Made by a program: the position numbers and the translations under genes
Shown: positions 23,462-28,108 of the stretch, piece after piece
Layout: each line of letters opens with the position of its first letter
Position numbering within the stretch: the first letter of the stretch is position 1
Assembly: GCA_001874305.1 (NCBI GenBank)
Contig: MPCU01000003.1
Span: 310,001-374,000, forward strand
Reading direction: 5' to 3'
Source of the DNA: Bacteriovorax sp. MedPE-SWde
Lineage (GTDB): Bacteria; Bdellovibrionota; Bacteriovoracia; Bacteriovoracales; Bacteriovoracaceae
Length of the DNA stretch: 64,000 bases
Notes under the pieces: model-generated
The model's database searches: none
The model's input: only the letters and a program-made list of their open reading frames with translations
What the model was told of the DNA's origin: nothing

Positions 23462-25228
23462 TTAATTAAAATCGAGTTTATCAACCATTAGTTGGATATA
23501 CTTATTACCATTGAAGTAATTAAGTGAGAGTGTGAAGTAGACGTTTAGCTCTTCTCCATCAATCTTTTGCCTTTCAAAAATTTCATTTGGACTCATATGT
23601 CCCCACTTTCCAACATAGTTAAAACTAATGCCTTTTAAGTTCAGCTTCGGATTCTTATTAGAAGAGAAGTTCCAACGTACGTGAACATCTTTCATAAGAT
23701 CGTAACTCTTAAGAAACCCGCCTTTAAGCTTAAAGACAGGTTTAGCATTACCCATTCCAAAAGGCTCGAGCATATCAAGAGCTTTAAGTAATGACGGAGA
23801 GATTTCTTCTGGTGAAATCTCTAGGTCGTATAGGTGTTGAACAGTTCTTTGAATTGCTGGTATTTCTGACAACATTTGGTTTAAATTTTCTTTAAATTGA
23901 GCAAGGTTCTCTTTTTGCATTGAAAGACCAGCAGCTGCCTTATGACCACCAAACTTTATAAAGAGATCTTTATTTGCATCTAATAGGTCAAATAGGTTAA
24001 GTCCTCCAGCACTTCTTGCTGAGGCCTTAATAACTCCTTCATTTTCACTATCACTAAAGACAATTGCAGGAACCTTGAATGTTTCAACGAGCTTACTTGC
24101 AACGATCCCGATAACACCTTCGTGCCAGTGTGGAGCATAGACTATGCAGATGAGAGGCTCACCGTGTTTCATTTGATCTATGACTTGTTGCTTGGCCTCG
24201 TCGAAAACTTCTTTTTGAATAAACTTTCTTTCGTTATTACAGTTTTCAAGCTGGTGATAATATTCACGCGCTGTTTTATTATCTTTTTCTATAAGAAGCT
24301 TTAGCGCCACTTCTGGGTGGTCTAAGCGACCTTTTGAATTAATGAGTGGTCCAACATTAAAAGATAGCTTCTCACTTGGTATAATGTCTTTCTTTCTATC
24401 TTCTGGTGGAAAGAAAGTTCTAATACCTTCATACTCACTAGTTTTAATTAGTCTCATTCCGTGTCGAACAAGTTTTAAGTTCATTGGAGTTAGTTTGGCC
24501 AGATCACAAATTGTTCCAATTGCAACATATTGAAGTAGGTCATATATAGAAGCTATATCTTTGCCTTGAGAAAGAAGTATTTTTCTAACTTCAACACATA
24601 CTGCAAAAGCAACACCCACACCTGCAAGAGTTGTAAGATCACTATCAGCAGGTTCATCCCTACGATTAGGGTTAACAACAGCTACACAGTCCGGCATTAC
24701 TTCTCTAGCATCTTTATGGTGATCCGTAATGATAAGGTCGAGACCTTGTTCTTTTGCGTAAGCAGCAGTTTCTACATTTGAAATTCCACAGTCGACAGTT
24801 ATAAGAAGTTCAATTCCCATTTCTATAGACTTATCTATTGATGAGTTGTGAATTCCATAACCTTCGATAAAACGACTTGGCTGTATCATCTCAACTTCTA
24901 CATCAAGCTTTTGGAAAAACTGATAGAAGAGGGCACATGATGTTGTACCGTCGACATCATAATCACCATAAATACCAATTTTCTTATTGTTATCTAAACA
25001 ATCTATTATGGCCTGAGCGCATACTTGAATATCTTTAAGACCTGCCATATTTGGTAGACCCTTAAGATCCCATGAAAAGAATTCGGTGATCTCTTGAGGA
25101 GTCAGACCTTTCTTAGTCAGGAGTCGGTTAATAACTGGATGTAAGTTGAATTTGTTTTCTGTTTGAAGTTCCACCTCTGTTTTATACCATGGGGAACGGG
25201 GATAGGGCATTGTGCGATAAGTCTTCAA
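23462..25228 (-). CDS. recJ: single-stranded-DNA-specific exonuclease RecJ
   Basis: 588 residues, normal for RecJ. DHH-family motifs are present: IYGDYDVDGTTSCA, LLITVDCGIS, DLIITDHHK, GTICDLAKLT and, in the DHHA1 domain, FGGHKAAAGLSM. RecJ degrades ssDNA 5'-3' in recombination and mismatch repair. The start is uncertain: TTG at 25228 or the ATG at 25210 (MPYPRSPWYK). The start region lies in a perfect 8-bp inverted repeat at 25216-25240. A small zinc-ribbon gene is 27 bases upstream on the same strand. Confidence 0.95.
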   Translation of the reverse strand: MKTYRTMPYPRSPWYKTEVELQTENKFNLHPVINRLLTKKGLTPQEITEFFSWDLKGLPNMAGLKDIQVCAQAIIDCLDNNKKIGIYGDYDVDGTTSCALFYQFFQKLDVEVEMIQPSRFIEGYGIHNSSIDKSIEMGIELLITVDCGISNVETAAYAKEQGLDLIITDHHKDAREVMPDCVAVVNPNRRDEPADSDLTTLAGVGVAFAVCVEVRKILLSQGKDIASIYDLLQYVAIGTICDLAKLTPMNLKLVRHGMRLIKTSEYEGIRTFFPPEDRKKDIIPSEKLSFNVGPLINSKGRLDHPEVALKLLIEKDNKTAREYYHQLENCNNERKFIQKEVFDEAKQQVIDQMKHGEPLICIVYAPHWHEGVIGIVASKLVETFKVPAIVFSDSENEGVIKASARSAGGLNLFDLLDANKDLFIKFGGHKAAAGLSMQKENLAQFKENLNQMLSEIPAIQRTVQHLYDLEISPEEISPSLLKALDMLEPFGMGNAKPVFKLKGGFLKSYDLMKDVHVRWNFSSNKNPKLNLKGISFNYVGKWGHMSPNEIFERQKIDGEELNVYFTLSLNYFNGNKYIQLMVDKLDFN

Positions 25229-25240
25229 TAGCGACTTATC
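25216..25240 (-). repeat. inverted repeat over the recJ translation start
   Basis: GATAAGTC (25216-25223) and GACTTATC (25233-25240) are exact inverse complements separated by nine bases. The loop contains the upstream TTG start candidate; the ATG at 25210 lies just downstream. A hairpin in the mRNA here could limit recJ initiation or be an operator. Confidence 0.4.
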
Positions 25241-25255
25241 ACACTTATATTTGGT

Positions 25256-25504
25256 CTACCAAAGAACGGTTAAGCCCTTAACCATATCATCTTCATGTAA
25301 TTCCGATGCGTTAGAAAATAGCTCTTTAAATTCAGTACTATTTTTCGCGTGAACTTTTCCAAAATAATTCATTGGAAGAAATGGTTTCTTACAAGAACCA
25401 CACTTATCAATTTCTTGATGAGACTCCATCATGTGGCCACATACGTGACATTTCTTGATAATTTTTGCTGTTTGCTTTGTTGTTTCTACAGAAGTCATTT
25501 TCAT
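25256..25504 (-). CDS. small zinc-ribbon protein
   Basis: 82 residues with two CxxC pairs: CHVCGHMM (residues about 19-26) and CGSCKKPF (about 35-42), a typical zinc ribbon. The C-terminal half (ELFSNASELHEDDMVKGLTVLW) is helical and acidic. No catalytic motif. It is encoded just before recJ and probably shares its transcript. Proteins of this type are common in Bdellovibrionota and of unknown role. The start may also be the second ATG, two codons downstream. Confidence 0.72.
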   Translation of the reverse strand: MKMTSVETTKQTAKIIKKCHVCGHMMESHQEIDKCGSCKKPFLPMNYFGKVHAKNSTEFKELFSNASELHEDDMVKGLTVLW

Positions 25505-25650
25505 TTCTACTCCACTTTAAATCGTGGTCTCCTTTCCCTAATTATATTTGCCTCTTCCTTGTGCAAATTTGATACATAAATCTATTCGTAAATTTATTTC
25601 TAATGTTTAGAAAAAAGTGGAACTTTTTACCTGTGCTGAAGAGTCGGAAA

Positions 25651-25690
25651 TAAAAAAGGCCAGTACGAGGGGGAGGATGTACTGGCCTTT
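25651..25690 (-). terminator. rho-independent terminator of the coiled-coil gene
   Basis: AAAGGCCAGTAC (25655-25666) and GTACTGGCCTTT (25679-25690) form a 12-pair stem with a purine-rich 12-base loop; on the minus strand a TTTTTT run follows. It serves the gene ending at 25718. Confidence 0.92.
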
Positions 25691-25717
25691 AAAGCATATT
25701 AAATAGGTCGGTTATTT

Positions 25718-27097
25718 CTAATTCATAAAGCTGACTGCGCTTGGTTGCCAAGATGATGTTTCTGCAAAATTCGGTGTTACATTGACTCCAAAGTTATATG
25801 CCCTAGAGCTGTCAAAGCTTGAGATAGGGTAGGCCGTTTCTGGAGTGTATCTCATTGGCTGATCTTTAATATATGAATCATGAAAGCTCATATTTCTTCC
25901 AGTGTTAAGCCCTTTGTACGAGTTTCTATTTTCGTAACCAAAGAAGCCTCCAGTTTCATATTTATTAAAGCTATTCATTAATTCACTTCTCATTCTCATC
26001 ATCTCGAGATCTTTATACATCATGAGTTGAGAGTTCATAAAATTTCCACCACCCTCAAACGATGTCATATCACTAAAGAATGACCTTTGTTGTCTTTGGG
26101 TATTTTGTGACATTTGAAATCTCATTTGTTGCTCTTGCTGATGCTGCATATATGCATTGAAGATTGCAAACATTTGAGCTGTTGTATCGTCTTCGCTTTC
26201 GTCTTTATCATCATTGTCATCTGAATCATCATTTGATTCGGCAACCTTTTCTTTTTTCTTTTCTACTTTATCTCTATTTTCTTTTTCTTCTTTCTTCTCT
26301 TGAATTTGCTTTTCTAGCTTCGCTAAAATATCAGACTTATCTTTAGTCAGTTCATCAACTTGTTTTTGCAGGTTGTTTTGTTTTTCTAATAAACAAGTTA
26401 GTTTTAAGTTTTCATCTTTTAGATCAGTATTTTCTTTTTGAAGTTTTGCGATAGTTTCTTTTAGTGCATCCATTGTGCCTTTGATATCGTCAAATTGGGC
26501 AAGGGCCATTTTTAGGTCACCGAGTTCTTCTGTTTTAGCTTCAAGAGCTTGAGCAAGAGCAGTGTTCTTATCTGTGAGAATTTTCTTGTCATGCTCATAT
26601 GTATCTTTATTTGCTTCAAGTTCTTCATCAAGCTGATCAATGATATTTCCTACTTGTTCATTTGTTACTTTTATTTCATGCTCGAGTTCTTTAACTCTAT
26701 CTTCGACAGCTTTCTTACTAGATTCTAGAGCAGTGAACTCAGTGTTAACTGAATCTAGTTCCTTTTGTAGAGCGCTTGGTTGTAGTGTTACTGAGATATC
26801 TAGCAGATTAATTCCGTTCCATACTTTTGAAACTTTATCTCCTAGTTGACTTGCTTCTTCTTTCCATCTTACATAGAAAGGCTTTTCTTCTTCATCGATG
26901 TTCTCAACGAATGTTACTGTAGGTTTAATGATTACGTCATTACTAGCTTCAACTTTTACTTCTTCATTTTCCGAAGATGCAATAGTCCTGCTAACTGGTT
27001 TGTTGTTATTTGCGAAGTTCCCCATTTCATTTGCTACATATGCAGTTGATAAGAGTGCGCAACTAAATAGAGCGACAGCTAAGTTCTTTGATTTCAT
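25718..27097 (-). CDS. exported coiled-coil protein
   Basis: 459 residues from the ATG at 27097, which has GGGAGGA four to five bases upstream (an in-frame TTG at 27109 overlaps that site). The N-terminus is a signal peptide or anchor (KSKNLAVALFSCALLSTAYVA). Residues about 105-270 form a long heptad coiled coil rich in Glu/Lys. A very acidic patch follows (DDSDDNDDKDESEDD), then a Met/Gln/Phe-rich segment (near 310-380) and a Tyr/Asn/Ser-rich tail without Cys. Likely a periplasmic or surface scaffold; no family recognised. Confidence 0.72.
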   Translation of the reverse strand: MKSKNLAVALFSCALLSTAYVANEMGNFANNNKPVSRTIASSENEEVKVEASNDVIIKPTVTFVENIDEEEKPFYVRWKEEASQLGDKVSKVWNGINLLDISVTLQPSALQKELDSVNTEFTALESSKKAVEDRVKELEHEIKVTNEQVGNIIDQLDEELEANKDTYEHDKKILTDKNTALAQALEAKTEELGDLKMALAQFDDIKGTMDALKETIAKLQKENTDLKDENLKLTCLLEKQNNLQKQVDELTKDKSDILAKLEKQIQEKKEEKENRDKVEKKKEKVAESNDDSDDNDDKDESEDDTTAQMFAIFNAYMQHQQEQQMRFQMSQNTQRQQRSFFSDMTSFEGGGNFMNSQLMMYKDLEMMRMRSELMNSFNKYETGGFFGYENRNSYKGLNTGRNMSFHDSYIKDQPMRYTPETAYPISSFDSSRAYNFGVNVTPNFAETSSWQPSAVSFMN

Positions 27098-27230
27098 TAT
27101 TCCTCCCAAGAATATGCTTTGGTATTATTAAAGCAAAACTTGTGCCAAGAAATGTATGTGATTTAGGACGTTTTACGTGAATACTGTCTAACTTCTATAC
27201 ACACTGTGAAAAAAGTATCTAAATTTTAGA

Positions 27231-27689
27231 CTAATTTTGTGATGTTAGAGTGGTCAATATTTCGTCAATAGTAGACGCAGAGTTAACTGCGGATTCTAAG
27301 CTCTTAAGAAACTCTTCTAAGCAAGGACTAGGATTATCTTTTAGAATAGCTTGAAATAAGTCATTCCATACTTGTGATACCGCTTTAATACTATCATCAG
27401 CACAAATAAAGATATTGGTCTTTTCTTTAAGCTGAGTAAGTTCAGGAGTTTCAAGTAAAGTAGGACATTTGATAGCGAGTTTATTCTTTTTAATTGATTC
27501 TAGAGATTCCCCAAGAACTTTATCTTTTGTTACTTCTCTATTTCTAGTAGAGATATCAAAGTATTTAATATCAAGATCTAAGAATTCACAGATAATATTA
27601 TTTTTGAATAATGACCAGTTTTTGAAGTCTTCTTTATCACCATCGAGTTCTACAAATGGTGTAGAAATTTTGATACGATTCTCTCTCAT
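27231..27689 (-). CDS. internally deleted isocitrate-dehydrogenase-like protein
   Basis: 152 residues. Residues 8-75 align without gaps to the N-terminus of monomer-type eukaryote-like NADP-isocitrate dehydrogenase: PFVELDGDKEDFKNW (IDH: VVEMxGDEMTRIIW), LDIKYFDISTRNREVT (IDH: LDLxxYDLGIENRDAT) and IKKNKLAIKCPTL (IDH: IKKxxVGVKCATI). Residues about 95-148 resemble the IDH C-terminus (AxIFAWTRGL...LDNN..L..FAxxLE). The middle with GTVFR, the isocitrate arginines and metal acids is absent, so catalysis is not expected. Its ATG overlaps the receiver-like gene stop (TAATG). Alignment is from memory of the family, not a search. Confidence 0.7.
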   Translation of the reverse strand: MRENRIKISTPFVELDGDKEDFKNWSLFKNNIICEFLDLDIKYFDISTRNREVTKDKVLGESLESIKKNKLAIKCPTLLETPELTQLKEKTNIFICADDSIKAVSQVWNDLFQAILKDNPSPCLEEFLKSLESAVNSASTIDEILTTLTSQN

Positions 27690-28108
27690 TAACTTTCCTG
27701 AGAATTCATTATACTGCGAGGAGCTTTATTGGCCTTTGCCTTGAACGCTTCTATTTTATCTAAGAGAGATCCAAAGATCTTATCGTTGTAGACGATGAAT
27801 TCATTTATTCCAGTCTTAAAGTAGTTCAATACTTCATCTTGTTCAATTTTCTTATCAACGAATATAATTTGAAGCTCATCCTTCTTATAAACACTACGTG
27901 CTAGGCCAATGAGCTCGAGAGCAGACATGTCCATGAGGTTTCCAAGAACGACAACAGTATCAAATTCAAATTTTTCAATCTGTGATAGCGCTTGAAAGCC
28001 ACTATTTGAAAGTTCAACATAGAGTCCTTGTAGACGAAACCTTGAAGCGAGGGTATCCCTTCTGCTTGCCTTGGAGTCTACAATAAGTAATTTTTTATCT
28101 TCGGCCAT
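27689..28108 (-). CDS. degenerate response-regulator receiver protein
   Basis: 139 residues from the ATG at 28108; a GTG at 28129 would add seven. The fold is a CheY-like receiver: KKLLIVDSKASRRDTLASRF (beta1/alpha1; the acidic pair is reduced to VD), FDTVVVLGNLMDMSALELI (beta3), LQIIFVDKK (beta4) and EFIVYNDKI (beta5). The phospho-acceptor Asp of beta3 is missing (Leu-Gly-Asn), and the Thr/Ser and Lys switch residues are altered. It is probably a phosphorylation-independent receiver. It is coupled to the mini-IDH protein, suggesting that they act together. Confidence 0.78.
   Translation of the reverse strand: MAEDKKLLIVDSKASRRDTLASRFRLQGLYVELSNSGFQALSQIEKFEFDTVVVLGNLMDMSALELIGLARSVYKKDELQIIFVDKKIEQDEVLNYFKTGINEFIVYNDKIFGSLLDKIEAFKAKANKAPRSIMNSQES

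Follow-up and report, generated by a model that had tools for sequence, protein, structure and literature searches.

The window analysed here, 64,000 nucleotides from Bacteriovorax sp. MedPE-SWde, carries two small overlapping genes on its minus strand. The upstream one (27689..28108) encodes a CheY-like pseudo-receiver of 139 amino acids, counted from the ATG at 28108, with no output domain. The second (27231..27689) encodes a 152-residue protein, here called mini-IDH, which appears to be an internally deleted type II NADP-isocitrate dehydrogenase (IDH): residues ~1–89 correspond to the N-terminus of IDH and residues ~100–152 to its C-terminal helices. The two genes share one base in a TAATG stop/start overlap (27687..27691, minus strand). 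The initial annotation had described the protein as translated through this overlap from a receiver-like gene lacking the beta3 Asp, and both open reading frames, the overlap and the Asp loss are indeed present. Because its start codon overlaps the receiver stop, mini-IDH is probably still produced, by translational coupling with the receiver.

Downstream on the same strand lie genes encoding a coiled-coil protein with an N-terminal hydrophobic segment (25718..27109), conserved in the family as a neighbour of the receiver/icd slot, a conserved 82-residue zinc-ribbon-like protein (25256..25504; CHVCGHMMESHQEIDKCGSCKKPF) and a RecJ-like DHH exonuclease (23462..25228), named from its sequence, with which the conserved block ends. 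The order of this block is receiver–(icd)–coiled coil–zinc ribbon–recJ; one or more coiled-coil proteins, the zinc-ribbon-like protein and recJ (23462–27109 in the window) stand beside the receiver in many genomes of the family. Below, G000 denotes the genome of the window and G001–G005 the other genomes of its genus (six in all).

Residues 4–89 of mini-IDH match the NCBIfam model NF006156 with an E-value of 3.3e-18; among solved NADP-IDHs the best hit is the yeast enzyme 2qfv (E = 1.6e-15). At 152 residues and 65.5 bits, against a family cut-off of 335 bits, the protein falls short of both the full length and the cut-off of type II NADP-IDH. Since a MAFFT alignment with full-length IDHs scattered the C-terminus of mini-IDH, profile–profile comparison was used for this part instead. 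A shallow profile of the region after residue 89, built from the three known mini-IDHs, matched IDH profile positions 362–391 (reference IDH residues 331–360) with a score of 30.2; the best column-shuffled control scored 24.0 and 0 of 400 shuffles reached 30.2. The matched site, a helix pair AWTRGL...LIKFAETLEKVC, is the single best place and is colinear with the N-terminal match, and the C-terminal helices as a whole correspond to IDH residues ~326–361. The C-terminus of the G000 protein by itself is too diverged to be significant in single-sequence searches, where the signal comes from the orthologues of G003 and G004 (G003 at 8.8e-6 in a single-profile search).

The motifs SPNGT, GTVFR, GRHA, HRLIDD, YDGDVQSD and EAAHGT, as well as other catalytic and coenzyme motifs, are absent from all three mini-IDH orthologues. 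The initial annotation had named the sensing of metabolites as one possible role; the isocitrate and NADP residues are missing. Judged by its sequence, mini-IDH cannot be an isocitrate dehydrogenase. Being homologous to type II NADP-IDH yet devoid of its defining enzyme features, the product should be labelled an IDH-derived mini-protein, not an IDH. These results bear out the earlier proposal that the N- and C-terminal segments of the large domain are kept while the middle is gone, with one refinement. The whole large domain of human IDH1 comprises ~230 residues, so a protein of 152 residues would be short of some 80 large-domain residues too, besides the small domain and the clasp.

The AlphaFold2 model of mini-IDH (pLDDT 87.6, pTM 0.81) was obtained from an alignment containing IDH fragments for the N-terminus only. 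In the structural comparison with IDH that had been recommended, 150 of the 152 residues superpose on solved full-length IDHs (Z 15.5, rmsd 2.3 Å); the superposition uses the first and last parts of IDH and spans nearly the whole IDH chain, up to IDH residue 409. IDHs also rank first in a Foldseek search with this model. Prediction without homologues is poor (pLDDT 46), so the predicted mini-IDH fold, though well supported, depends in part on what the alignment and the network already contain about IDH.

The pseudo-receiver matches Pfam Response_reg at 29.3 bits, just below the cut-off of 30.2, and its family profile matches CheY chains at 5.5e-15. The phospho-acceptor Asp at the end of beta3 is replaced in 12 of 12 aligned receivers by L, Q, I, M, R, V, G or N (L in the window), and alignment of the family profile to CheY places a Tyr at the conserved Lys after beta5. 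Receivers beside an intact icd also lack the Asp; the residue was therefore lost long ago, independently of the shortening of icd. The idea that the receiver became phospho-dead together with the emergence of the mini-gene was rejected, since every aligned member of the receiver family lacks the residue. In several genera a full-length NADP-IDH gene comes immediately after that of the stand-alone pseudo-receiver (L181 2391–3990, L053 2091–3814, L050 3031–4652), and this family-wide neighbour of icd could possibly be an uncharacterised IDH-associated regulator or binder of IDH.

Orthologues of mini-IDH occur in two other species of the genus, G003 (134 aa) and G004 (147 aa). In each, an ATGA overlap places the start within the stop codon of that same receiver gene, and the search for the pair in other genomes, suggested by the initial annotation, thus recovered the same arrangement twice. 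Pairwise identity among the three species is 27–35%. The G003 and G004 proteins compared alone do not align better than shuffled controls, 1 of 500 of which attains the same score; their kinship rests on the similarity of each to the G000 protein, on position and on the receiver. In G001 the receiver stop is followed by ~200 non-coding bases and then by the coiled-coil gene, with no mini-IDH, in a reading that joins two contigs by synteny, as the receiver is split over their ends. The coiled-coil/recJ locus of G002 has neither receiver nor mini-IDH, and no mini-IDH match was found in G005 (73% complete). G004 also carries a gene between the 183-aa gene and the receiver (L060 4046–4543) that is absent in the window; it was labelled L,D-transpeptidase-like from an HG...SNGCIALS-type motif.

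Full-length icd directly follows the same pseudo-receiver in G018 and five more genomes of its genus, in G024, G027 and G090, and in the record behind L151, with gaps that are mostly 14–91 nt. The intact pairs read at sequence level (G018, G024, G027) are separated by 14–83 nt, in contrast to the stop/start overlap in all three mini-IDH species. In G090 the first icd start proposed by the ORF caller overlaps the receiver and the conserved start lies further downstream; in G010 a masked stretch separates pseudo-receiver and icd. Downstream of the receiver–icd pair, several of these genomes encode a small protein, coiled-coil proteins, a zinc-ribbon protein and RecJ, as in the window, and in G007, G012 and G020, which have no icd, the small-protein and coiled-coil genes follow the receiver directly. 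As the pseudo-receiver directly precedes full-length icd elsewhere in the family, mini-IDH, by its position, occupies the former icd slot. The initial view of a repurposed enzyme fold paired with a receiver holds for the retention of a large-domain fragment without a catalytic centre; the pairing itself is not new, as pseudo-receiver and full-length icd were together earlier.

This shared position bears on two other origins. A short IDH-like protein acquired separately, rather than left in place, would fit the observation that the G000 neighbours beyond the conserved block are unlike those of G003. It is nevertheless very improbable: slot, upstream receiver and strand are the same as for full-length icd in relatives, and no intact short IDH homologue was found outside the genus in 58 relatives, 129 family genomes and the best 80 loci of an 84,980-species collection. 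A frameshift or assembly error concealing a full-length IDH was looked for and not found. We rejected this explanation, so far as the assembly can tell, and consider its probability negligible, given that three independent assemblies show the same arrangement, no other type II icd pieces exist in G000, the contig is long and the frame is unbroken around the gene.

A full-length IDH elsewhere in the genome had also been proposed for search. G000 (99.7% complete) yielded no further piece of a type II NADP-IDH; it encodes a complete monomeric type III IDH on contig C8, and the other Iso_dh match is a 356-residue open frame of LeuB size. Hence the suggestion that mini-IDH interacts with the real IDH finds no support: G000 encodes no homologous IDH, just the monomeric enzyme and the LeuB-sized protein, and a partnership with a homologous IDH of the same genome was rejected. 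Sequence homology between type III IDHs and those of types I and II is below 10% (PMC8287583).

The monomeric type III enzyme is present in 6 of 6 genomes of the genus. Of 129 family genomes, 71 encode a dimeric IDH that passes the cut-off and 48 a monomeric IDH; G090 alone has both. The exclusion has a Fisher p of 2e-23, uncorrected for relatedness. The two IDH types are mutually exclusive across the family, as in non-orthologous gene displacement. In G090, with an estimated contamination of 6%, the dimeric and monomeric genes lie ~15 kb apart on one contig (C30:145899–147116 and 161379–163586; L181, L182), and this genome is a possible intermediate of displacement. Genus g56 is split between dimeric (G082, G083) and monomeric (G081, G084–G087) enzymes, which suggests that the replacement happened repeatedly.

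Mini-IDH evolves much faster than its neighbours. Between G000 and G004 it retains 28% identity, against 57–82% for neighbouring genes and 79% for the monomeric IDH; its NG86 dN/dS is about 0.47–0.67, compared with a dN of 0.22–0.33 and a dS that is saturated or above 2 for the receiver. This fast divergence, together with the absence of the gene from G001 and G002, argues against an important function and agrees with a functionless, decaying relic, in which icd lost its job and was deleted internally, its frame being unbroken so far since it is co-transcribed with the receiver. We give this explanation somewhat less than an even chance, as several features point the other way. The frames (134–152 codons) are open in three species at a synonymous divergence near saturation, and random sequence of the same composition would stay open for 147 codons with a probability of about 5e-6; mini-IDH thus does not show the broken frame by which a pseudogene is recognised. 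The similarity of the G000 protein to both orthologues exceeds 500 of 500 shuffles, and the start/stop overlap is kept in 3 of 3 species. Where the N-terminal part aligns without gaps, changes are fewer at second than at third codon positions (0.36 vs 0.54). The codon-position pattern hints at weak constraint, in a test weakened by saturation and alignment bias: over the whole length of the G000/G004 comparison, codon-permuted controls show a similar bias after protein alignment.

If mini-IDH has a function, the simplest would be that of a non-catalytic partner of the co-translated pseudo-receiver. It may have retained an ancestral IDH surface that meets the pseudo-receiver, the two forming a co-translated complex without catalytic activity. 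The adjacency of receiver and icd predates the mini-gene, the stop/start overlap is tight in all mini-IDH genomes and, by analogy, pseudo-receivers such as FrzS have been argued to work by binding without phosphorylation (PMC1974792). We regard this explanation as tentative, and considerably short of probable. In many dimeric-IDH genomes of the family no receiver–icd adjacency was found, and the receiver persists with neither icd nor mini-IDH beside it in G001, G007, G012, G015 and G020. Its survival in at least these five genomes shows that a partnership with mini-IDH is unnecessary for the main job of the receiver. Once an origin in place is granted, retained function and decay appear evenly balanced to us.

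That mini-IDH is the remnant of the original icd, left in place, we hold to be highly probable. The whole account, a displaced type II icd, internally deleted where it stood and now encoding a non-catalytic large-domain mini-protein, is likely, and it draws on homology at both ends, synteny, motif loss, the complementary distribution of the two enzymes and an open frame in three species. From these we infer a deletion that followed displacement and a product that would be translated and fold. A type II (dimeric, eukaryote-like) NADP-IDH would originally have sat downstream of the pseudo-receiver in this lineage. An acquired monomeric type III IDH may then have taken over the job, leaving icd redundant, and one or more in-frame internal deletions would have removed about 240 codons, comprising the small domain, the clasp, the dimer interface and the substrate and coenzyme sites. 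The joined ends could presumably still form a compact large-domain fold of the alpha/beta type, and the start of the shortened gene would have come to overlap the receiver stop. Mini-IDH would now be either a binding protein under weak constraint, with the pseudo-receiver as its simplest candidate partner, or a slowly decaying remnant. We speculate further that the displaced enzyme was exapted as a small non-catalytic binding protein, co-translated and acting with a phosphorylation-independent pseudo-receiver, although we consider this rather unlikely.

The open-access literature yielded no description of mini-IDH and no pertinent work on Bacteriovorax IDH, on bacterial IDH pseudoenzymes or on a pairing of IDH with a pseudo-receiver. 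As a rule, non-orthologous displacement is deduced simply from which genes are present and which are missing; in this case the displaced gene itself can still be seen at its original position. The genomes compared include one with both enzymes (G090), sister genera that keep the receiver–icd pair intact, three species whose gene is shortened and two that lack it. Whether a redundant enzyme is lost or reused as a folded scaffold thereby becomes directly testable.

Among known systems, the closest to mini-IDH is the type II homodimeric NADP-IDH (NF006156/TIGR00127; yeast Idp1 2qfv, human IDH1/IDH2), with which it has in common the N-terminal 85 residues, the C-terminal helices, the predicted large-domain fold and the genomic slot. 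Unlike that enzyme, it lacks about 240–260 internal residues, the active site, the coenzyme site, the clasp and the dimer interface. The receiver resembles FrzS of Myxococcus xanthus (PMC1974792), KaiA and CikA in its CheY-like fold without the phospho-acceptor Asp; in contrast to them, it is a stand-alone protein in a conserved block with icd, or the remnant of icd, and coiled-coil proteins. The distribution of the enzymes follows the displacement between type II and type III IDHs (types as in PMC8287583), where the presence of one enzyme excludes an unrelated one catalysing the same reaction. Here, however, the displaced gene has left a shortened, readable protein in place.
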